Program-made: the position numbers and the translations under genes
Part shown: in pieces, positions 24,043 through 35,040 of the stretch
Layout: the number at the start of each line of letters is the position of its first letter
How positions within the stretch are numbered: the first letter of the stretch is position 1
Notes under the pieces: model-generated
Databases searched by the model: none
Told to the model about the DNA's origin: nothing
The model's input: the letters and a program-made list of their open reading frames with translations, nothing else
Source of the DNA: Maribacter aestuarii
GTDB lineage: Bacteria; Bacteroidota; Bacteroidia; Flavobacteriales; Flavobacteriaceae
NCBI RefSeq assembly: GCF_027474845.2
Contig: NZ_CP107031.2
Span: forward strand, 3,611,001 to 3,675,000
Length of the DNA: 64,000 nt
Direction: 5' to 3'

Positions 24043-25818
24043 ATGTCCGTTATCAACACGAAAGACTTATTAAGCCAATTATCACAATTGGAAAGGTCCC
24101 TGAAAAAGTTCTCTTTTGAAGAATTAAGCGCTGAAGAAGCCAGCTCCTTGGGTTCGTCTTTTAAAGACTTTAAAGAACTGTTGGAAACTAAAATTTTCGA
24201 CCCGAATGCACGGATAACAGAGGTGCAAAACGAAAAGAAATTAAGACAGCCGAAATTTACAAACGAACAATCCAACAATGCAGCGCATCTTATTGCTCAT
24301 GTAAGTCATGAAATCCGCACCCCATTGAACGGGATAATCGGATTTGCCAATTTATTAAGTGAAGAGGAGTTAAGGCCTGGTCAACTCAAAAAAGTGGAGG
24401 CCATACAGTCTACCTCCTATGCGCTGATGGAGATTATCAATGAAGTACTAGAATATTCAAAGCTTACTTCTGGCGTAGATGATTTCAATGAAATCGATTT
24501 TAATTTTAAGGCTTTGGTACAGGATGTTATGTTTTTATGCCAAACTTTAATGTTGGACAAAAACGTGCATTTACAAGCCACAATAGACCCAGAAATACCA
24601 CATACCTTACTTGGGGACCCTTCCAAGCTTTCTCAGATATTATTGAATCTAATGGGCAATGCGATAAAATTTGTAGAAAAGGGCCATATAAAATTGACCA
24701 TTGACCTGAAGCAAAAAAAGGGTACGGCGTATGTTCTAAATTTTAAGGTGGCAGATACCGGTATCGGTATTTCCGAGCCCCAATTGAAAACCATTTTTGA
24801 GAGCTATAAACAGGCGGATACCAGTACATTCTCCAAATATGGTGGCTCTGGCCTTGGATTAAGCATAGTACGGGAGATAATTGAGAAACAAGGTGGTCAC
24901 ATAGAAGTCCAAAGCGAATTAGGGGTAGGCACAACATTCCAATTTACCATTCCTTTTAAAGTGGGGAATCACCTTAACATACCTAAAAAGGGTGCTAGCA
25001 CCATAAATGTACAGAAGGGAAAGGAACTTTTACGAGGAACACGGTTTTTAGTCTTTGAGGATAATCTTCTTAACCAGCATCTGATTAGTGAGCAACTGAA
25101 TAAATGGGGATGCAAGGTGCATGTTACCGCTGATGCCACAAAAGGTCTTAATATCCTTAAATCACATTCCGTCGATATTGTTCTAATGGATCTGAAGATG
25201 CCCGGTATGTCCGGTTTTGAGGTGACCGAAAAAATTAGACGTATTGACGACAGTCGAATAAAAACTATTCCCATCATTGCCATTAGCGCAGACTTTACGG
25301 CGCAGGATCAAGAAAGCTGTGTAACCTCTGGAATAGACGACTTTATCTTAAAGCCTTATACGCTGGATGAATTATTGCTAAAAATCCTGAAACAAAAGAG
25401 GGAAAAAATGCTTACTACAGAAAGCAAGGCCCTTTTAAAGAGAAAAACAATTGTCGTAAAGAGACCTATTGAAATTGATCTGGACAAAGTATACGAGGAC
25501 TGTTTTGGTGAAATTGAGATTTTGTCCGAACTGATCAGGTTGTTTAAACAGAACGTCTTCGAATTTATCGGAGCCGTTAAAATAAACCTGAAGCACAATG
25601 ATTTAAAAGAAGTTTCATTATCGGCTCACAAGCTCAAGGCCGGATTGGCAATGATGAACGCCAAACATTTACTTAATCTGATAATTGCCATAGAGGCTAG
25701 TTGTAAAAATAATGATGAAGTGGAAGTTGAGCGACTCTATCAAGAATTCTTGGATGCTTATCCAGGTAATGAAAAAGCAATAGACCGACAATTGACTGAA
25801 TTAAAGAAAAAGATATAA
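24043..25818 (+). CDS. Soluble hybrid histidine kinase with REC and Hpt domains
   Basis: A 591-residue protein with no membrane segment. The N-terminal ~85 residues are helical and lack a known sensor domain. HisKA has the phospho-histidine in HVSHEIRTPLNG (~88-98). HATPase shows LLNLMGNAIKF, VADTGIGIS and GGSGLGLSIV. A receiver domain follows (~335-455) with phosphoacceptor MDLKMPG and lysine ILKPY. The C-terminal Hpt domain has LSAHKLKAGLA (~529). It could run a His-Asp-His relay within one chain and pass the phosphate to the next gene's product; the start of that gene shares one base with its stop codon. Confidence 0.92.
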   Translation: MSVINTKDLLSQLSQLERSLKKFSFEELSAEEASSLGSSFKDFKELLETKIFDPNARITEVQNEKKLRQPKFTNEQSNNAAHLIAHVSHEIRTPLNGIIGFANLLSEEELRPGQLKKVEAIQSTSYALMEIINEVLEYSKLTSGVDDFNEIDFNFKALVQDVMFLCQTLMLDKNVHLQATIDPEIPHTLLGDPSKLSQILLNLMGNAIKFVEKGHIKLTIDLKQKKGTAYVLNFKVADTGIGISEPQLKTIFESYKQADTSTFSKYGGSGLGLSIVREIIEKQGGHIEVQSELGVGTTFQFTIPFKVGNHLNIPKKGASTINVQKGKELLRGTRFLVFEDNLLNQHLISEQLNKWGCKVHVTADATKGLNILKSHSVDIVLMDLKMPGMSGFEVTEKIRRIDDSRIKTIPIIAISADFTAQDQESCVTSGIDDFILKPYTLDELLLKILKQKREKMLTTESKALLKRKTIVVKRPIEIDLDKVYEDCFGEIEILSELIRLFKQNVFEFIGAVKINLKHNDLKEVSLSAHKLKAGLAMMNAKHLLNLIIAIEASCKNNDEVEVERLYQEFLDAYPGNEKAIDRQLTELKKKI

Positions 25819-26186
25819 TGCGAAAACGGATTTTATTAGCAGATGATGATGAATTACTGGCTTCCTTATTAAATTTTAGATTGGAAAAAGGAGGTTATGA
25901 TGTGCACCATTCCTGTAATGGGAAGGAAGTAAAGGAATATCTGGCTACAGAGATGCCGGATATTATCGTAAGTGACATTATGATGCCCTATTTCTCTGGG
26001 ATTGAATTAATAGACTATGTAAGGAACGAACTATCGTCCAAAACCCCCATAATCATAATTTCTTCCGCAGGAAACGAAGAAAATGTTCTAAGCGCTTTTG
26101 ATTTAGGCGCCAATGATTTTATTTCCAAACCGGTTAGCCCATCTGAACTATTGGTCCGTGTAGCGAGAGAGTTAAATAAAATATAA
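25818..26186 (+). CDS. Single-domain response regulator
   Basis: A 122-residue CheY-like receiver with nothing attached. The acidic pocket is ADDDELL, the phosphoacceptor is in VSDIMMPYFSG, the threonine/serine switch is IIIISSAGN, and the lysine is in SKPVSP. It overlaps the kinase gene by one base (TAATG) and is 6 nt from the next gene. It has no DNA-binding domain, so its output is probably a protein partner. The HEAT-repeat protein encoded next is the obvious candidate, by position. Confidence 0.93.
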   Translation: MRKRILLADDDELLASLLNFRLEKGGYDVHHSCNGKEVKEYLATEMPDIIVSDIMMPYFSGIELIDYVRNELSSKTPIIIISSAGNEENVLSAFDLGANDFISKPVSPSELLVRVARELNKI

Positions 26187-26192
26187 TCTAAT

Positions 26193-28625
26193 TTGTCAAT
26201 AACCCCCAAGACATATAAGATAAATGCTTTGCTTAGTGCCCCAAAAATCGATACCGATTTGCTTTGGGGCCTTTCTGCTTTATTTGTCTTGTTGGCATTA
26301 ATTTATTTCGTTTCCGTATTCTATTTCAGAAATAAGATTTCAAGGAAGGGACGTAAGGTGAAGGAGAAAAAGAAAGAGCTTTCTCCAATGATCAGTGAGT
26401 TTTTGTTCTATGACCAATCAGCTAACAAAAGTGAAAAGATGAACTATATCGATTTGAAAATACAAATACGGGAGTTGATCAAGAACGATTTTGACCGCAA
26501 GGTTTTAACGGAAGTCTTAATGGACCTTAGGAAAGATGTTTCCGGAAATACAAGAGATGAACTATTCCATATCTATCAGGATTTGGAACTGCATAAGGAC
26601 GCTTACGAAAAGCTAAAGAGCTGGCGTTGGGAGGTGGTTTCTAAAGGCATATTTGAACTTACCCAAATGAACGTCGTAGAATCCTACGGACTCATCACTA
26701 AATTCATAAACGATAAACGACCAACCATAAGAAAACAGGCAGAATTGGCCGCCGTTACCCTAAAGGAAGAGGGTATTTCATTTTATCTGGACCATACAAA
26801 GTTTAAGATTTCGGAATGGCAGCAATTAAAATTATTGGATGTAGTTCGAAATAAGGAAGATTTCATTCCACCGCCCTTCCGCCTATGGCTTACCTCCAAG
26901 AACAACTACGTGGTCCTATTTGCCCTAAGGTTGATCAAACATTACAACCAGAATGATGCTAGTTCCTCTTTAATAGAATTGGTAAAACATAGAAATAGTC
27001 ATATCAAGAAAGAAGCCATCCATTGCATACGTGAGTTTAATGTCACCGATGCCTTGCCTACAATGAAAGCAGTATTCCGAAAATGCAGTACGGATGTTAA
27101 GATGTCCATCTTGGATACGATAGCGCAAATTGGAAGTAAATCCGATGTCGATTTTCTTACGTCGGTTCAGCAAAAAGAATCTGGCTTCACCATTAAAAGC
27201 AAAGCTCTAAGCGCGCTCAACACTATTACACCCGAATCTATTTTACCGTCAAAAGATGTAGAGGAGACAGAGGATTGGGAAGTGGTCGAAAATATGCAAG
27301 AGCAAACAAAATCAAAGGAACTACCTACTGAAACTTTTGATGAAGTTAATGACAATATTGAAGAGGCCATAGCTATTGATAATTTGGAAGTGATTGCTGA
27401 AGTTGTAGATAATGCCCCGGTAGATAAAGAGATAACAAGTTCGGAATCAAATCTGCATGAAATTGACATGACTTTCTTGCCGATTGTGCTGGATGAGGAA
27501 AAGACGGAGTCCAGAACTCCAATCGCGTCAGAAATCGAGCCTAATGAAAAAACCACTTCATTCAATGACCTGGATGTTATCTCTGAGGAAATATGCATTG
27601 AAACAATTCCACCAACCATAAATATTGACTTTCTTCCATTGATTGTTGAACAAGAGGAGACCATAGTCCCCGAGCTTAGGGAGTATAAAATAGTCTACGA
27701 AGAAGTTTTGGATGTACCTCATTTCGATATTAGAACCGTAGATTTTGATAAAGACAAAGAAGATGATCAGACGGTACAAGATGACGTTCCAAGACCAATG
27801 TGTATTGCTGATATAGATGTTGCAAGTTTAGTTGAAATGGAGGTTGATTGCGAAGAAATAAGACCAGAACAGATTGGCGAAGAGCAAGTCATAGAGATAG
27901 ATTGGTCAAACGCATTTTCTAACAAAGCGCCATTAGAAATTTCATCACTCATTGAAATGACTACTGAAGTCGAGATCAATGCCATTGAAAAAAATAAAAA
28001 TGATTTAAACATACCTAGGGCAGCGTTTTACGAGAACGGAGTGTTAGAAACTATGGTCCTTCTGGAAAATATTTCGGAATTGGGTGACCACAGAGAAATA
28101 CCGTTCTTGAAGCATTTATATGAGACCGAAAGTTCAATCGATGTTCGGGAAAGAATTTCAGAATTAATCGAACGTTTTAAAGAGGAATACCAAGGAATTG
28201 AATACTTCAAAATCACACAATTTGAGGCAGTGGATAGTGTTTTTAATGAGCTAATGGAAAGGGGCGATTTAGAATCCAAACTAATTCTATTACAAGAAAT
28301 AATAGCGGTGGGTGATGAAAAGGAAATTCCCCTATTGCGGTTAATGATCCAATCTGATGATGCCATCATTCGTAAAAAAGCGACTTCTGCATTAAAAAAA
28401 TTAATGGAACGCTTGGCATCTGAACATAGTCAGGAAATTGATAACAAAGCTGTAGGGAGCGGATTGGAACAGTCGGATATTTTTGAGGTAGATTTTGAAC
28501 TACAAAAATCAAAACCACTGGCTAAAAGCAAATACGGATCGGCTAGCAGTGATACCAACGGTAATACACTGTTCGACCATCTGTGCTCCATGTCTAGCAA
28601 ACTTTACGATAAATTTAATGGGTAG
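26193..28625 (+). CDS. Membrane-anchored HEAT-repeat protein
   Basis: An 810-residue protein; the start codon is TTG at 26193, chosen because no in-frame ATG precedes the membrane helix. One transmembrane segment lies at about 25-46, followed by a lysine-rich stretch (KGRKVKEKKKE). Residues ~80-350 form HEAT/armadillo-like repeats (DASSSLIELVKHRNSHIKKEA is one), and a second repeat block lies at about 610-760. Between them (~360-600) is a long acidic, low-complexity region. It overlaps the glycosyltransferase start by 8 nt. I infer a scaffold or regulator of the synthase; no catalytic site is seen. Confidence 0.75.
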   Translation: MSITPKTYKINALLSAPKIDTDLLWGLSALFVLLALIYFVSVFYFRNKISRKGRKVKEKKKELSPMISEFLFYDQSANKSEKMNYIDLKIQIRELIKNDFDRKVLTEVLMDLRKDVSGNTRDELFHIYQDLELHKDAYEKLKSWRWEVVSKGIFELTQMNVVESYGLITKFINDKRPTIRKQAELAAVTLKEEGISFYLDHTKFKISEWQQLKLLDVVRNKEDFIPPPFRLWLTSKNNYVVLFALRLIKHYNQNDASSSLIELVKHRNSHIKKEAIHCIREFNVTDALPTMKAVFRKCSTDVKMSILDTIAQIGSKSDVDFLTSVQQKESGFTIKSKALSALNTITPESILPSKDVEETEDWEVVENMQEQTKSKELPTETFDEVNDNIEEAIAIDNLEVIAEVVDNAPVDKEITSSESNLHEIDMTFLPIVLDEEKTESRTPIASEIEPNEKTTSFNDLDVISEEICIETIPPTINIDFLPLIVEQEETIVPELREYKIVYEEVLDVPHFDIRTVDFDKDKEDDQTVQDDVPRPMCIADIDVASLVEMEVDCEEIRPEQIGEEQVIEIDWSNAFSNKAPLEISSLIEMTTEVEINAIEKNKNDLNIPRAAFYENGVLETMVLLENISELGDHREIPFLKHLYETESSIDVRERISELIERFKEEYQGIEYFKITQFEAVDSVFNELMERGDLESKLILLQEIIAVGDEKEIPLLRLMIQSDDAIIRKKATSALKKLMERLASEHSQEIDNKAVGSGLEQSDIFEVDFELQKSKPLAKSKYGSASSDTNGNTLFDHLCSMSSKLYDKFNG

Positions 28626-30048
28626 CGGAGTCTTTGATATCGTACTGGAGTACATAAACATCGTTTTTCTGGTGTTTACGGTGATCCTGTTTACCATGTT
28701 CACGGCCATGGGATACCTCTCCACCAGAAATTCTATCCATTACCGTAACAAGAATAGTTTTGGGGACATGTCCAAACTAATGGCATCACCTTTGGCACCC
28801 AGTATTACTATCATTGCACCTGCCTATAACGAAGGTATGACCATTGTGGAAAATATTCGTTCCCTAATGTCCTTGCGCTATGTGAACTATGAAGTAATGG
28901 TGGTTAATGACGGTAGTAAGGATGATACGCTTCAAAAAATGATTGACGCTTATGACCTCGTTAAGATAGAACAGGAAATTGATCCAGAATGGAGATCAAA
29001 ACCCATACGTGGAATTTATAAATCACCGCATAAGGCATTTTCAAAATTAACGGTCATAGATAAGGAGAACGGGGGCAAGTCCGATGCATTGAATACCGGT
29101 ATGGCACTTTCCACGAACCAATATGTGGGTTGTATAGATGTGGATTGTTTGCTTTTGCCCGATGCCTTGCTGCATGTGGTGAAATCGTTCTTTCAGCGGT
29201 CCGAGAAAAGAGTAATTGCCGTTGGTGGTGTTATTCGAGTGGCTAATTCATGCGTTATCCAGGGTGGACAATTGGAGGAAATCAGACTTCCAACGAACTG
29301 GTTGGCAAGGTTTCAGCTTTTGGAGTATACACGCAGCTTTATTCTAGGCCGTATGGCATGGGGAAGAATAGACAGCTTACTCATTATATCGGGAGCCTTT
29401 GGTTTTTTTGATCGTGAAATAGCTTTGGCCGTTGATGGCTATGACACCAATACTGTCGGTGAGGATATGGAAATCGTTTTTAAGATGAGACGGTACATGC
29501 ACGAGCGGAAACTGCCCTACACCGTAGAATATATCCCAGACCCTTTATGTTGGACAGAGGTTCCGGAGGATACCAAAATCTTAATAAATCAGAGAGATCG
29601 TTGGGCTCGGGGTAACTTGGAAACATTGTACAAGCATAAGGACATGTTCTTTAACCCCAAGTTTGGACGTTTGGGAATGTTAAGTTACCCGTACTGGTTC
29701 TTTTATGAATGGTTGGCACCTATCCTGGAATTTTTCGGTTTTTTCACCATTATACTTTTTTACTGGCTAGGAATTTTGAATTGGGACTTTTTCGTGGCCA
29801 TTACGGCCACCGTATATGTGTTTTCCATTATGTTCTCGTTCTATGCCATTCTATGGGACGTTTATTCATACAACGAATACAAAAAGACCAAGGACATACT
29901 TATACTTATGTTCTGCGCTATTATTGAACCCGTAACGTTCCATCCGCTAGTCGTGTGGTCCGCTATAAGGGGTAATTATAAAAAATTATTTAAGGTAAAA
30001 TCCGGGTGGGGATCGCAGGTCCGCAAAGGATTTGCCAAGGCAACGTAG
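28618..30048 (+). CDS. Processive family-2 glycosyltransferase (exopolysaccharide synthase)
   Basis: A 476-residue inner-membrane enzyme from the ATG at 28618 (MGSGVFDIV); a longer frame from 28495 would run far into the previous gene. Helix ~8-32 is followed by the GT-A domain: APAYNEG, VVNDGSKDDT, the D..D motif DVDCLLLPDA, GEDMEI (catalytic base) and QRDRWARGN (QxxRW). Three or more helices follow from ~365 on. This set is that of cellulose, hyaluronan and poly-GlcNAc (PgaC) synthases, closest in feel to the PgaC type. The sugar is unknown. It overlaps the HEAT gene by 8 nt. Confidence 0.88.
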   Translation: MGSGVFDIVLEYINIVFLVFTVILFTMFTAMGYLSTRNSIHYRNKNSFGDMSKLMASPLAPSITIIAPAYNEGMTIVENIRSLMSLRYVNYEVMVVNDGSKDDTLQKMIDAYDLVKIEQEIDPEWRSKPIRGIYKSPHKAFSKLTVIDKENGGKSDALNTGMALSTNQYVGCIDVDCLLLPDALLHVVKSFFQRSEKRVIAVGGVIRVANSCVIQGGQLEEIRLPTNWLARFQLLEYTRSFILGRMAWGRIDSLLIISGAFGFFDREIALAVDGYDTNTVGEDMEIVFKMRRYMHERKLPYTVEYIPDPLCWTEVPEDTKILINQRDRWARGNLETLYKHKDMFFNPKFGRLGMLSYPYWFFYEWLAPILEFFGFFTIILFYWLGILNWDFFVAITATVYVFSIMFSFYAILWDVYSYNEYKKTKDILILMFCAIIEPVTFHPLVVWSAIRGNYKKLFKVKSGWGSQVRKGFAKAT

Positions 30049-30050
30049 AG

Positions 30051-32438
30051 ATGCACGAGATACAAGACATAAAAATTGACCCTAGGTCCAAGAAATTGAA
30101 GGATTTTATTCCTTTGGTTATTTCCTTCTTTTTGGGGTTGGTGGTTTTGTCCGTATATCAAAATACGTCATTATATTTTTCTGGGGTTCTGGATAGTATT
30201 GTGAACAAGAGTTTTTTTATCCTACTGTTGCATCATTTAGGGTTTGCATCGGTATGTGCACTATTCCTAGCTTTCCTTTTTAATATTTTAGAGAACTGGA
30301 GACCAGGCAAAGGATTTTTAACCGTAAAAATCATCATTGGCATACTCTTGCTTGTTGAGGTGGTTCTCGTTAATTATTACGTGAGGAACTATGAGGTACT
30401 TGGCGCCAATTTTTCGGGATGGTCAAGTTTAAGTGGGACAAGGAATTCATTTTTTCAGGTAATAGGCATCTTAACACTGTGCATACTGGTAACTCATTAT
30501 AGTTACAAGTACATCACATCGTTTTACCGACTTATCAGTAGGATGTACCCATTTACAATCATATTATTCAGTCTATTTCTCGCTACCCTGTACTCTGAAA
30601 AAAAAGCTGTTAATGAAAATAAGACCCAACACCTATTGGAGCGCATTGGTAAAAATCTATTCGATACCAATGTTTATGAAGGTGATGCTGAATATCCGTT
30701 GTTAAAGGAGACCGACTATACGACTGACCTGCACAAATACTTCCATTTAAAATCGGACAGACCATCCATAAAGATAATCGTGGTAAACGGGTTGGGTAGT
30801 TCCTTTGTTAATGAAGGCGGTGCGTATATCAATTTTATGCCTTATCTGTCGTCCCTAAAAACAGAATCCCTCTATTGGAACAATTTCTTGAGCAATACAG
30901 GTGAAGACCATGGGGCATTACCCTCTATCGTTGGATCCTTACCTTTTGGTCAAAATGGGTTTACACATATAAATGAGCTGGTACACAGGAATACGTTATA
31001 CAGTATTCTACAAAAAAATGGCTATCTGACATCCTTTGCCTATGGAGGCAATAGTGCACTTAATGCCTATGATAAATTTCTGTACGAGGAAGGGGTAGAG
31101 CAAATTTTGGACAAAAATGCTTTTGGTAAAGAATATACAATGCAAACTGAGGATGCAGCGGGTATTTCACTTGGATATCCGGATAAGCAACTTTTTAAAA
31201 AGTATCATTCGAATATGTCGTCAGATACCATTCCTAGTTTAGATGTTTTGGTAACCCTAAGTACCAAGGAGCCCTATCAAATACCGATGATGGAGCATTA
31301 TTTGGAAAAGGTAGGGCTCAGCTTGTCAAATTCAAGATTTGGTGGGAGGACAAAACGAATAATCAATAAAAACGCAGCCCTATTTGCAAGCTTCCTATAT
31401 ACGGATGAGGCTATTGAAGAATTTATGGCCGCCGAGCAAAATCTTTCCAGTTATGACAATACGATTTACATCATCACAGGAAGTCATCATGCTACGGACC
31501 TACCACAGGAGAATACGCTCTCCCGTTACAGGGTCCCATTAATAATTTACAGCCCTCTACTAAAATCAGAGCAGGTTTTTAATGAAGTTGCTTCCCATGC
31601 GGACATCGTACCTACCTTACTTTCCTTGCTAGACAAGCAATACGGCATTGATGCACCAAAAGATGTGGCGTGGTTGGGTAGTGGTTTACAGGCACAAAAG
31701 AATCTCTTTAATAAAAAGCAAATCCCATTATTAAGAAGCACGAATAATATTCAGGATTATATCGATGGTTCTCATTTTTTAACGGACGGTGATGTATACG
31801 AGCTTGATCAAGATTTAAAATTTCTAGAGGCCGAAGAAGACAGTGAAATAGAGGCGATCAAAAAAAGTTTTGACCAGTTTAAGGCCATTAATGCCTATGT
31901 CACCACAGAAGATAAAATTCTCCCAAAGGATATTTCACTTATCACTTATACTGAAAATACGTTTACAAAGGAGCAAGAAATATGGATTCAGAGTGTGTTT
32001 AATGGACAAAACTTTGACGAAGCCTATGGTACGGCTCGTAGGCTGGCCCTGGATAATGATTGGAGCAGGTCTTTGTTGCTCTGCAAGTATATTTTAAGTG
32101 AAATCCCTAGACATGCCGACACAGAAATTTTAATGGGTAGACTCTATGCCTGGCAAGAAAACTATGAGAAATCCATATCGATTCTCGAAAAGGTTGTACA
32201 GAAATATCCAGACTATGAGGATGGTTATTGTGCGCTTTTGGATGCTTATTATTGGGCAGATAAGGATGAAAACGTCTTTTGGATAAAAGAATCTGTTGCA
32301 AAACATAAATTAACTCAGGACCTTTTAACGGAGAAGATTGAACGTTCGTTGCAAAAGGTTCAAGAAAAAAGAACCCAAGAATTACAAGAAGCTGTGAAAG
32401 AGGATAAAGGTGCAGTGGTCAAAAACAATACGAAATGA
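30051..32438 (+). CDS. Membrane LtaS/sulfatase-fold protein with TPR tail, probably inactive
   Basis: A 795-residue protein from the ATG at 30051, 2 nt after the glycosyltransferase stop. Five predicted membrane helices (to ~190) precede an extracytoplasmic alkaline-phosphatase-superfamily domain (~220-590). By comparison with LtaS, the metal Glu reads G/N (VVNGLGSS), the Thr nucleophile region reads NTGEDHGALPS without the Thr, the LSxHxPY-like motif reads LSTKEPY, and the GDH motif reads GSHH. YRVPLIIYSP and HADIVPTLLSLL still fit the fold. A C-terminal TPR region (~640-780) follows. It may bind or modify the polysaccharide. Confidence 0.75.
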   Translation: MHEIQDIKIDPRSKKLKDFIPLVISFFLGLVVLSVYQNTSLYFSGVLDSIVNKSFFILLLHHLGFASVCALFLAFLFNILENWRPGKGFLTVKIIIGILLLVEVVLVNYYVRNYEVLGANFSGWSSLSGTRNSFFQVIGILTLCILVTHYSYKYITSFYRLISRMYPFTIILFSLFLATLYSEKKAVNENKTQHLLERIGKNLFDTNVYEGDAEYPLLKETDYTTDLHKYFHLKSDRPSIKIIVVNGLGSSFVNEGGAYINFMPYLSSLKTESLYWNNFLSNTGEDHGALPSIVGSLPFGQNGFTHINELVHRNTLYSILQKNGYLTSFAYGGNSALNAYDKFLYEEGVEQILDKNAFGKEYTMQTEDAAGISLGYPDKQLFKKYHSNMSSDTIPSLDVLVTLSTKEPYQIPMMEHYLEKVGLSLSNSRFGGRTKRIINKNAALFASFLYTDEAIEEFMAAEQNLSSYDNTIYIITGSHHATDLPQENTLSRYRVPLIIYSPLLKSEQVFNEVASHADIVPTLLSLLDKQYGIDAPKDVAWLGSGLQAQKNLFNKKQIPLLRSTNNIQDYIDGSHFLTDGDVYELDQDLKFLEAEEDSEIEAIKKSFDQFKAINAYVTTEDKILPKDISLITYTENTFTKEQEIWIQSVFNGQNFDEAYGTARRLALDNDWSRSLLLCKYILSEIPRHADTEILMGRLYAWQENYEKSISILEKVVQKYPDYEDGYCALLDAYYWADKDENVFWIKESVAKHKLTQDLLTEKIERSLQKVQEKRTQELQEAVKEDKGAVVKNNTK

Positions 32439-33655
32439 ATCCTAGAAAAATAGTTTCCTTATTATTGATTTTCTGGATGTGCATTTCCAATGCCCAAGAA
32501 ATAGCCTATTCTGGAGATCCAGATGCTTCCTTTCTTGCCGCACGAGATTTGGCATTTGCGGGAGAGCGGCAAATTGCCAGGGATACCTTAAGGCAAATTC
32601 TTGCTGTATATCCGGAGTATACGGATGTTCGGTGTCTTTTGGCCAAGACCTATAGTTGGGACAACGAATTTGAAGAGGCCCGCCTGCAGTTCAACAGAAT
32701 TACAAGTGAAGACAAGAATAATAAGGATGTTTGGATTGGAGCCATAAAGAACGAACAATATGCAAAAAACTTCCATATTGCCCTAGGGCTTTGCAATAAG
32801 GCACTCATCTATTTAGAGGACGATTCCGAGCTTTTGAACTTAAAAGCTCAAATCTTAGAACAAATAGAGGCCCAACAACTACTTCAAAATGTTTTGAAGG
32901 AAACCAAAATTGAGGACCCAACGACCCAAGCCATAACCCTCTACACTCAAGGTGAGGTTTTTGACGAGCAGCTAGACCCAATGTATTACGGGGCACTAGA
33001 GTACAAAAAAGAAGCGAGTTGGGGCGTGTTGATTCCGAGATTAAATTTCAACCGTCGCTTCAATATCAACGGAGTACAGGCAGAGGTGGATGCATATCCG
33101 AGGTTTAATAAAACCCTTAGTGGCTACATAAATTATGGTTATTCCGCCTCTCAGATATTTCCCCGTCATAGAATAGGAGGGGAGGTCCTAAAGGAACTGC
33201 CTAAGGCAATGGAAGTATCTTTAGGATTTAGGCATTTGTCCTTTGATACCGATGATGCTACTATCCTCACGGGTACGTTTGGAATTTATAGGGGTAATTA
33301 CTACGCAGTAGTACGACCCTACATTATACCGGATAGTAGAAAAGGTTTAGGGGTTTCCGGAAATTTGTTGGTGAGACGTTATTTAAAAGACGGAAATAAT
33401 TTTCTAGGTATGAATTTGGTCTATGGTTTTGATACAGAACTCAACCAGTTTATTGTAGATGGGGAACTACTGGCGGAGACGCTGCTTTATTTGGAGGCAC
33501 AACGATTTAGGTTGGAGTATCAATTCAGTAATGGTGACGGAAACAACCTTTATAAGGCCAATATAGGCGTCAACCGGCAAGAACTTGCATTTAGCTCCGG
33601 TAACTTCTTTTTATCGGTTACCGCTGGACTGGCGTATTCCATTAAATTCCGTTGA
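32435..33655 (+). CDS. YaiO-family TPR / outer-membrane beta-barrel protein
   Basis: A 406-residue protein with a signal peptide (SLLLIFWMCISNAQ). Residues ~25-150 are TPR-like repeats (ARDTLRQILAVYPEYTDVR, KTYSWDNEFEEARLQF). The rest (~190-406) is a YaiO-type beta barrel ending LAYSIKFR, with strands such as VSLGFRHLSFD and YYAVVRPYIIP. Its start overlaps the preceding stop (ATGA). The TPR-plus-barrel plan is that of polysaccharide export proteins such as PgaA; YaiO proteins are linked to exopolysaccharide loci. I infer an outer-membrane exit pore. Confidence 0.85.
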   Translation: MNPRKIVSLLLIFWMCISNAQEIAYSGDPDASFLAARDLAFAGERQIARDTLRQILAVYPEYTDVRCLLAKTYSWDNEFEEARLQFNRITSEDKNNKDVWIGAIKNEQYAKNFHIALGLCNKALIYLEDDSELLNLKAQILEQIEAQQLLQNVLKETKIEDPTTQAITLYTQGEVFDEQLDPMYYGALEYKKEASWGVLIPRLNFNRRFNINGVQAEVDAYPRFNKTLSGYINYGYSASQIFPRHRIGGEVLKELPKAMEVSLGFRHLSFDTDDATILTGTFGIYRGNYYAVVRPYIIPDSRKGLGVSGNLLVRRYLKDGNNFLGMNLVYGFDTELNQFIVDGELLAETLLYLEAQRFRLEYQFSNGDGNNLYKANIGVNRQELAFSSGNFFLSVTAGLAYSIKFR

Positions 33656-33859: not shown

Positions 33860-33958
33860 ATGCTTTACGATACCTACGGAGAAGAGTACTTGGTATTCCT
33901 TCAAGATTTAAACGAAATTTTAAGCCTTAACGAATTAGCGGAACTAGACTACATGTAG
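33860..33958 (+). CDS. Micro-ORF 1 (32 residues), FLQDLNEIL type
   Basis: A 32-residue open frame starting with ATG. It contains FLQDLNEILSLNELAEL, an acidic amphipathic stretch. A second small frame 36 nt downstream repeats the F-x-QDLN-x-IL pattern. Such duplicated patterns are hard to explain by chance, which supports real small proteins. No signal peptide or membrane helix is seen. Function is unknown. They follow the exopolysaccharide operon by 204 nt on the same strand. Confidence 0.45.
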   Translation: MLYDTYGEEYLVFLQDLNEILSLNELAELDYM

Positions 33959-33994: not shown

Positions 33995-34096
33995 ATGGCA
34001 CATCAAAATCAAGACAACACCTCTTATCAAAATTTTATTCAAGATTTGAACAGTATTTTGGTAGATTACAATATCAACAAACTAACATATTCTTAG
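33995..34096 (+). CDS. Micro-ORF 2 (33 residues), FIQDLNSIL type
   Basis: A 33-residue open frame beginning MAHQNQDN with the segment FIQDLNSILVDYNI. It is related to micro-ORF 1 (F-x-QDLN-x-IL) and precedes the strong bidirectional terminator by about 20 nt, as a real last gene of a transcript would. It has no known domain. The pair may be small regulators; this is not shown by the sequence. Confidence 0.45.
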   Translation: MAHQNQDNTSYQNFIQDLNSILVDYNINKLTYS

Positions 34097-34117: not shown

Positions 34118-34152
34118 AAGAAGCGCCTGCAATAAAATTGCGGGCGCTTCTT
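34118..34152. terminator. Bidirectional terminator between micro-ORFs and rpoD
   Basis: A 16-bp stem (one G-T pair) with an AAA loop: AAGAAGCGCCTGCAAT pairs with ATTGCGGGCGCTTCTT. It lies between the convergent micro-ORF transcript and rpoD and can serve both. Confidence 0.85.
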
Positions 34153-34176
34153 ATATGAGACTGTTGTACTGGGAAA

Positions 34177-35040
34177 CTATCCCAAATACGTCTTTAATAA
34201 TTTACTTCTAGAGGCATGGCGCAGTTTGCGAATTGCCTTTTCCCTAATTTGACGAACTCGTTCCCGAGTCAAATCAAAGGTTTGGCCAATTTCTGCCAAG
34301 GTCATTGATTGTTGATCGCCAATGCCGTAGTAAAGTTTTACCACATCCGCTTCCCTAGGCGAAAGTGTCTCTAAAGCCCTATTGATCTCCGTATTCAAAG
34401 ACTGTTGCAACAACTGGTTATCCGGTCTGGGTGATTCCCCAGAACGTAGAACGTCATATAGGTTAGAATCCTCACCCTCCCTTAACGGCGCATCCATGGA
34501 TACATGTCTTCCAGAGTTTTTTAGGGATTGCTTGACCTCTGTTACGGTCATTTCCAGTTCCTTTGCGATTTCTTCGGCAGAAGGTGGTCGCTCATGGGCT
34601 TGCTCCAAATAGGAAAACGTCTTTTTAATTTTATTGATGGAACCGATTTTGTTCAACGGTAGGCGTACTACCCTAGACTGCTCGGCCAAAGCTTGTAAAA
34701 TGGATTGTCTAATCCACCATACGGCATAGGATATAAATTTAAATCCACGAGTTTCGTCAAAACGCTTCGCAGCCTTAACCAACCCTAAATTTCCTTCGTT
34801 AATTAAATCCGGAAGTTTTAATCCTTGATTTTGATATTGTTTTGCCACAGAAACTACGAACCTAAGGTTGGCAGTGGTCAATTTTTCTAATGCTATTTGA
34901 TCTCCCTCACGTATTCTTTGGGCTAATTCTACTTCTTCATTTGCAGTAATTAAATCAATCTTACTGATATCCTGCAGGTATTTGTCCAATGATTTTGATT
35001 CGCGATTGGTAACCTGCTTGATAATCTTTAGTTGCCTCAT
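34177..35040 (-). CDS. rpoD: RNA polymerase primary sigma factor RpoD/SigA
   Basis: A 287-residue sigma-70 factor of the short type normal for Bacteroidota, without a long region 1.1. Region 1.2/2.1 starts [15 protein letters not shown]; region 2 has [30 protein letters not shown] and [15 protein letters not shown] (2.3-2.4); region 3 has [12 protein letters not shown]; region 4.2 has [29 protein letters not shown]. It directs housekeeping transcription from TAnnTTTG promoters. It has its own unit, ending at the strong terminator at 34118-34152. Confidence 0.96.

Follow-up and report, generated by a model that had tools for sequence, protein, structure and literature searches.

A 64,000-nucleotide (nt) stretch of Maribacter aestuarii DNA (contig NZ_CP107031.2, positions 3,611,001 to 3,675,000; hereafter the window), part of a one-contig genome of 3,864,851 bases, carries a compact cluster of six plus-strand open reading frames (ORFs) at window positions 24043–33655. 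The cluster encodes a hybrid histidine kinase, a single-domain response regulator (RR), a HEAT-repeat protein, a family 2 glycosyltransferase (GT2), an LtaS-like protein and a YaiO-family protein (Table 1). The genes are tightly packed: kinase and RR overlap by 1 nt, HEAT and GT2 by 8 nt, and LtaS and YaiO by 4 nt, while gaps of 6 nt and 2 nt separate RR from HEAT and GT2 from LtaS. An initial annotation made from the sequence alone had claimed these overlaps and gaps, which the ORF coordinates confirm, and the products it gave for all six genes match Pfam (kinase, REC, HEAT, GT2, Sulfatase, and TPR plus YaiO). The grouping is more than a local coincidence, since many Bacteroidota carry the core of the set.

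Table 1. Features of the gene cluster and the adjoining interval, in window coordinates
Feature	Coordinates	Strand	Length	Details and basis
Soluble hybrid histidine kinase	24043..25818	+	591 aa	Pfam HisKA-HATPase-REC-Hpt; no transmembrane segment by hydropathy
Single-domain RR	25818..26186	+	122 aa	Pfam REC; phospho-acceptor D53
Membrane-anchored HEAT-repeat protein	26193..28625	+	810 aa	TTG start 26193; Pfam HEAT_2; hydropathy
Processive-type GT2 synthase	28618..30048	+	476 aa	ATG start 28618; Pfam GT2 families; intact motifs
LtaS/alkaline-phosphatase-fold membrane protein, C-terminal TPR	30051..32438	+	795 aa	ATG start 30051; Pfam Sulfatase; AlphaFold; fold matches
YaiO-family outer-membrane protein	32435..33655	+	406 aa	Pfam and NCBIfam above cut-off; AlphaFold
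Micro-ORF, unannotated	33860-33958	+	32 aa	F[LI]QDLN motif, common to both micro-ORFs
Micro-ORF, unannotated	33995-34096	+	33 aa	F[LI]QDLN motif
G+C-rich inverted repeat	34120-34153			Read by eye; possibly a terminator
Sigma-factor-like gene, convergent	34177-35040	-	287 aa	

Co-occurrence is strict for two of the proteins. In a survey of 296 Bacteroidota genomes, with the best few candidates per genome scored in each single-protein search, the GT2 synthase is found in 70 (E 1e-60) and YaiO in 69 (E 1e-6), all 69 being GT2 genomes. Both proteins thus occur in 69 genomes, GT2 alone in one, YaiO alone in none and neither in 226, a distribution for which p-values are overstated because the genomes are interrelated. 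LtaS-like matches above 200 bits occur in 28 of the 296 genomes, and all 28 are GT2 genomes. The little-known YaiO family is thereby tied, throughout this sample, to one synthase type.

Gene order is conserved as well. Outside the window, 77 GT2 loci were compared (eight genomes contribute two copies), and in 76 of them the gene immediately before GT2, in the same orientation, encodes a HEAT protein: 72 called by a hidden Markov model (HMM), which like that for YaiO was iterated on the same ORFs, and four added by Pfam after an HMM miss (L095, L084, L107 and L109, the last below the Pfam cut-off). The two genes overlap by 1–8 nt in 41 of the 72 HMM-called loci. The sole locus in which no HEAT gene was found upstream is L110, where the GT2 frame lies in pieces beside insertion-sequence-type genes (transposase- and IstB-like). 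Apparent HEAT-GT2 fusions in the long GT2 frames of L084 and L107 were rejected; in both, the added N-terminal stretch runs over a distinct HEAT gene that is read in a different frame.

A second set of loci was recruited by the LtaS-like family alone and comprises the best 80 of 540 confirmed named-record loci, which favours nearer relatives. RR, HEAT, GT2, LtaS and YaiO are contiguous on one strand in 68 of these, with a kinase directly upstream in 41 of the 68. Seven of the other 12 stop at the end of a contig or sit on a short one (L117, L120, L125, L148, L152, L175, L186); the remaining five are fused (L167), rearranged (L177, L188), have GT2 on the opposite strand (L183) or lack a recognised RR (L151). 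A chance operon is rejected on this retention of gene order across relatives, and the scattering that would have undone the initial annotation was looked for and did not overturn it. The cluster is nevertheless not the fixed six-part machine first supposed: its near-obligate core is HEAT-GT2-YaiO. An LtaS-like part is present in 28 of the 70 GT2 genomes and is thus optional (fused to GT2 in nine of the 77 loci and nearby in 19), and relatives can do without the kinase domain. Titles and abstract openings of open-licence PubMed Central (PMC) literature yielded no account of such a gene set, and the available excerpts of PMC12419801 and PMC8072126 contain neither YaiO nor an LtaS term.

The NDGS, DVD, GED and QRDRW motifs of the processive-type synthase are intact, and GT2 motifs are likewise intact in all 14 members aligned; within QRDRW (residues 325–329), none of the 14 departs from Q, R, R and W. 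Profile comparison links GT2 to synthases of chondroitin, cellulose and hyaluronan (for hyaluronan synthase, positions 15–397 of 474, E 6e-5). An inner-membrane processive GT2 with intact motifs, a feature of synthase-dependent secretion, is present. The HEAT protein has one predicted transmembrane segment (residues 27–45), a HEAT_2 match at 260–342 and a weaker HEAT match, below cut-off, at 713–740. This membrane anchor and the fixed position beside GT2 suggest that it relays a signal to the synthase.

YaiO is assigned with wide margins (PF19413, 200.5 bits against a cut-off of 23.9; TIGR04390, 177.5 against 32), and TPR also scores above cut-off. In the AlphaFold model (mean pLDDT 92.1, pTM 0.61), a signal-peptide-like N-terminus precedes TPR helices at 29–160 and a 14-strand barrel at 165–405. 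The periplasmic TPR element of synthase-dependent secretion is represented in YaiO, and the C-terminus of the LtaS-like protein also has TPR-like helices. Foldseek ranks BcsC best by E-value, with PelBC at rank 9.

Control of the synthase appears to differ from what is usual. Cyclic di-GMP (c-di-GMP) is the switch in the Gram-negative synthase systems that have been studied closely, those for cellulose, poly-GlcNAc, Pel and alginate. Here, the RR is a lone REC domain with no output domain, and of 126 stand-alone RR-like ORFs of 105–170 aa in the window and loci, 124 have its phospho-acceptor D53 and all have K104. In L136, L159 and L164, the gene before the RR lacks the kinase but retains its N-terminal part and a terminal Hpt-like region. 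The Pfam match to this region exceeds the cut-off in L136 and falls short of it in L159. A pre-RR gene shortened in the same way is seen in L034, and those of L140 and L162 are of similar length. At E 1e-10, no GGDEF domain was matched in the window genome, nor in 47 of the 70 GT2 genomes; the 148 matching genomes include none from the family of the window genome. No PilZ match is present in GT2 by Pfam, the rest of the genome not having been searched for PilZ, so neither a PilZ domain on the synthase nor a diguanylate cyclase in the genome marks this system as c-di-GMP-controlled. Conservation of the phospho-acceptor, retention of Hpt-like ends and the missing GGDEF domains make it more likely that the family takes its input from protein phosphotransfer than from c-di-GMP, with the RR proposed to act on GT2 through HEAT. 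The locus offers a testable answer to how marine bacteria might control polymer synthesis without GGDEF proteins.

The LtaS-like protein of this bacterium retains the fold of an enzyme while residues needed for catalysis are gone. It matches Pfam Sulfatase with 73 bits, and TPR below cut-off; the AlphaFold model combines an LtaS/OpgB fold and N-terminal membrane helices with C-terminal TPR-like helices. The TPR of this protein is similar to that of YaiO. The family was searched in the 296 genomes, and 31 regions around matches were mapped. In the window, N246, D286, K406 and S478 replace E, T/S, H and D of intact relatives at four positions which we take to be catalytic from alignment to those relatives and from familiar LtaS motifs. 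The catalytic residues are kept in 91 of 112 LtaS-like sequences (two of the 91 being outgroup sulfatases), and at least two are lost in 21. Nineteen of these 21 are in the tree (outgroup L060 and L061; L123_9, from the same genome as L032, L044_2 and L152_3 were left out) and all 19 form a single group, the window's own, composed of Maribacter, Eudoraea, Zeaxanthinibacter and Cellulophaga; the closest relatives of the window protein lie in Maribacter- and Eudoraea-type flavobacteria. The most changed catalytic positions are seen in the Eudoraea-type loci L151 and L152. The term "pseudo" LtaS thus fits the window protein and its group, while the family at large is mostly intact enzyme. GT2 and LtaS form one polypeptide in ten ORFs, a state that changed five times or more on the tree. 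The window's group is informative in that catalysis was lost once in a protein that was retained, and its sister group, still intact, can be compared with it.

We read the locus as the form, carried by the window's group, of a Bacteroidota machine for synthase-dependent surface glycans in which a phosphorelay gates the synthase by way of the HEAT protein, and put the probability of this at roughly 0.65. The cytoplasmic hybrid kinase would pass phosphate by a His-Asp-His (Hpt) route to the RR, and the phosphorylated RR would dock next to GT2 on the HEAT solenoid with its membrane anchor, switching the synthase on post-translationally. GT2 would then polymerise an activated sugar and extrude the chain, presumably an exopolysaccharide, which the periplasmic LtaS-fold domain would meet where it leaves the synthase. 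This domain might attach a lipid-derived phospho-substituent in most relatives; in the window's group it could bind or guide the chain without catalysis. The TPR of the LtaS-like protein would hand the chain to YaiO, and YaiO would pass it across the outer membrane.

The gene set, its order and co-occurrence, the predicted folds, the states of the catalytic residues and the fusions are observed; the functional steps, the sugar, the polymer, its export and the direction of regulation are inferred from them. Several observations weigh against this model. Identity as a PgaC/IcaA poly-GlcNAc synthase is rejected, with GT2 far below the cut-off (TIGR03937, 137.1 bits against 422.3). YaiO lies within six genes of GT2 in 62 of 77 loci. 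The BcsC match to YaiO has low TM-scores (0.33/0.26) and a root-mean-square deviation of 19, the barrel alone best matches FadL, OmpG and CymA types, and the YaiO profile run against PDB sequences yields only TPR matches among the best 60 of 102. Synthase-dependent exporters are defined, in the available text of PMC9601211, by a 16- to 18-stranded outer-membrane barrel. YaiO has 14 strands, in a predicted rather than a solved structure; the proposal of a TPR-barrel protein therefore holds for TPR plus barrel and departs from that class in strand number. Since the model does not show the expected barrel size, the claim that the system works like synthase-dependent secretion is better supported than formal membership in that class. 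GGDEF matches in 23 of the 70 GT2 genomes also count against the c-di-GMP part of the initial proposal, which is favoured rather than established. A further proposal is tentative, at somewhat below even odds: HEAT-GT2-YaiO loci might define a separate Gram-negative polysaccharide secretion class across Bacteroidota, with a 14-strand TPR-barrel exporter, a phosphorelay/HEAT switch replacing c-di-GMP, interchangeable decoration modules and, in the window's group, an LtaS-fold partner turned non-catalytic glycan-handling domain.

Doubt about the barrel leads to another reading, in which the product is a periplasmic or envelope-bound glycan, comparable to the osmoregulated periplasmic glucans of OpgH/OpgB, and the YaiO barrel serves for anchoring or remodelling, not for export. 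GT2 with an LtaS-fold transferase is the OpgH-OpgB combination, the LtaS-like protein has phosphoglycerol transferase I as its second-best NCBIfam match (36.6 bits, cut-off 572), and 14 strands of FadL/OmpG/CymA-like type suit such a role. We regard it as unlikely, given YaiO in 69 of 70 GT2 genomes, the TPR-plus-barrel layout with BcsC as the best Foldseek E-value, and no OpgG-type domain among the Pfam matches of the six proteins. The regulatory half of the model faces a separate objection: the RR could act on a target other than HEAT, and the phosphorelay genes as a whole might serve other targets while GT2 is constitutive or otherwise controlled. An RR is found upstream of GT2 in only 50 of 77 loci; none is recognised before HEAT in the Eudoraea-type locus L151, where the other genes are present, and some relatives lack the kinase domain. 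Such independence is improbable when the RR has no output domain and a nearly invariant phospho-Asp, and when RR-HEAT-GT2 is contiguous within the 68 of 80 loci recruited by another protein.

The degenerate LtaS-like proteins can themselves be read in two other ways, as decaying genes without function or as changed enzymes with another active-site chemistry. Decay would account for faster divergence (at GT2 identity of 75–80%, median LtaS-like identity is 44.8% within the group against 71.2% in the intact sister group) and for the L152 frame, split into ORFs of 484 and 290 aa. It is very unlikely all the same, since 20 of 21 members keep a length of 775–811 aa and the ratio of non-synonymous to synonymous substitution rates (dN/dS) is 0.08–0.18, with dS near saturation, in the six degenerate pairs of seven for which it was computable; among intact pairs it was computable for three of five. 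Replacements are, moreover, common to the members: in the 18 sequences used for per-site counts (without L123, L151 and L152), R480N occurs in 16, H406K in 13, R285E in 13 and H494 to R or K in 15. These shared residues, H479 kept in 18 of 18 and the Ser that 12 of 18 carry at the nucleophile position could also point to a changed enzyme. That outcome too is a long shot: in the window protein the nucleophile position holds Asp, and D478 and H406 are both replaced in all 18. A retained, non-catalytic domain within the glycan machine is the reading we keep for this group.

Other elements recur around these loci. The two micro-ORFs lie between YaiO and the convergent sigma-factor-like gene; one or both occur in 54 of 112 sequences scanned (the window and 111 loci), the first being near-invariant. 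The first stays near the sigma gene even where a gene of ~430 aa separates it from YaiO (~2 kb away in L134). The inverted repeat lies in the same interval. A ~390-aa protein with one N-terminal transmembrane-like stretch is encoded near YaiO/GT2 in nine loci (L040, L046, L047, L048, L051, L052, L053, L055, L058), all with an LtaS-like protein; three members scanned have no Pfam match, and none was seen beside the window operon. A ~740-aa protein near GT2/YaiO (L035, L037, L073, L075, L077, L085, L099, L100; DUF4838 in L037) accompanies nine GT2 genes, three of them also with an LtaS-like part; it is possibly an alternative module.

Comparison with named systems places the locus close to, and apart from, several of them. 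The nearest named locus is yaiS-yaiP-yaiX-yaiO of E. coli K-12, of which we know no characterisation. Its GT2, YaiP, is encoded in one gene cluster with YaiO and shares 23.5% identity with the window GT2 over 293 aligned positions (E 1e-10). As annotated, that locus has no HEAT, phosphorelay or LtaS-fold gene and carries instead a putative deacetylase and an IS2-interrupted putative acyltransferase. PbgA/YejM/LapC is not known to have a GT2 partner, and a published study gives it a role in cardiolipin/barrier function; membership of the LtaS-like protein in this family is rejected (NCBIfam YejM, 26.9 bits against a cut-off of 825; no DUF3413 among Pfam matches). In OpgH/OpgB and BcsA/BcsG, an LtaS/alkaline-phosphatase-fold transferase acts on the GT2 product, as a separate protein without TPR; in the window's group, unlike these, the catalytic residues are lost. 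With Bcs cellulose, PgaABCD poly-GlcNAc and Pel the locus has in common an inner-membrane GT2, a TPR element and an outer-membrane barrel. It differs from them in its modelled 14-strand YaiO barrel, in a GT2 without PilZ and a genome without a GGDEF match, in the HEAT protein and phosphorelay, and in an LtaS-fold partner that is sometimes fused to the synthase.

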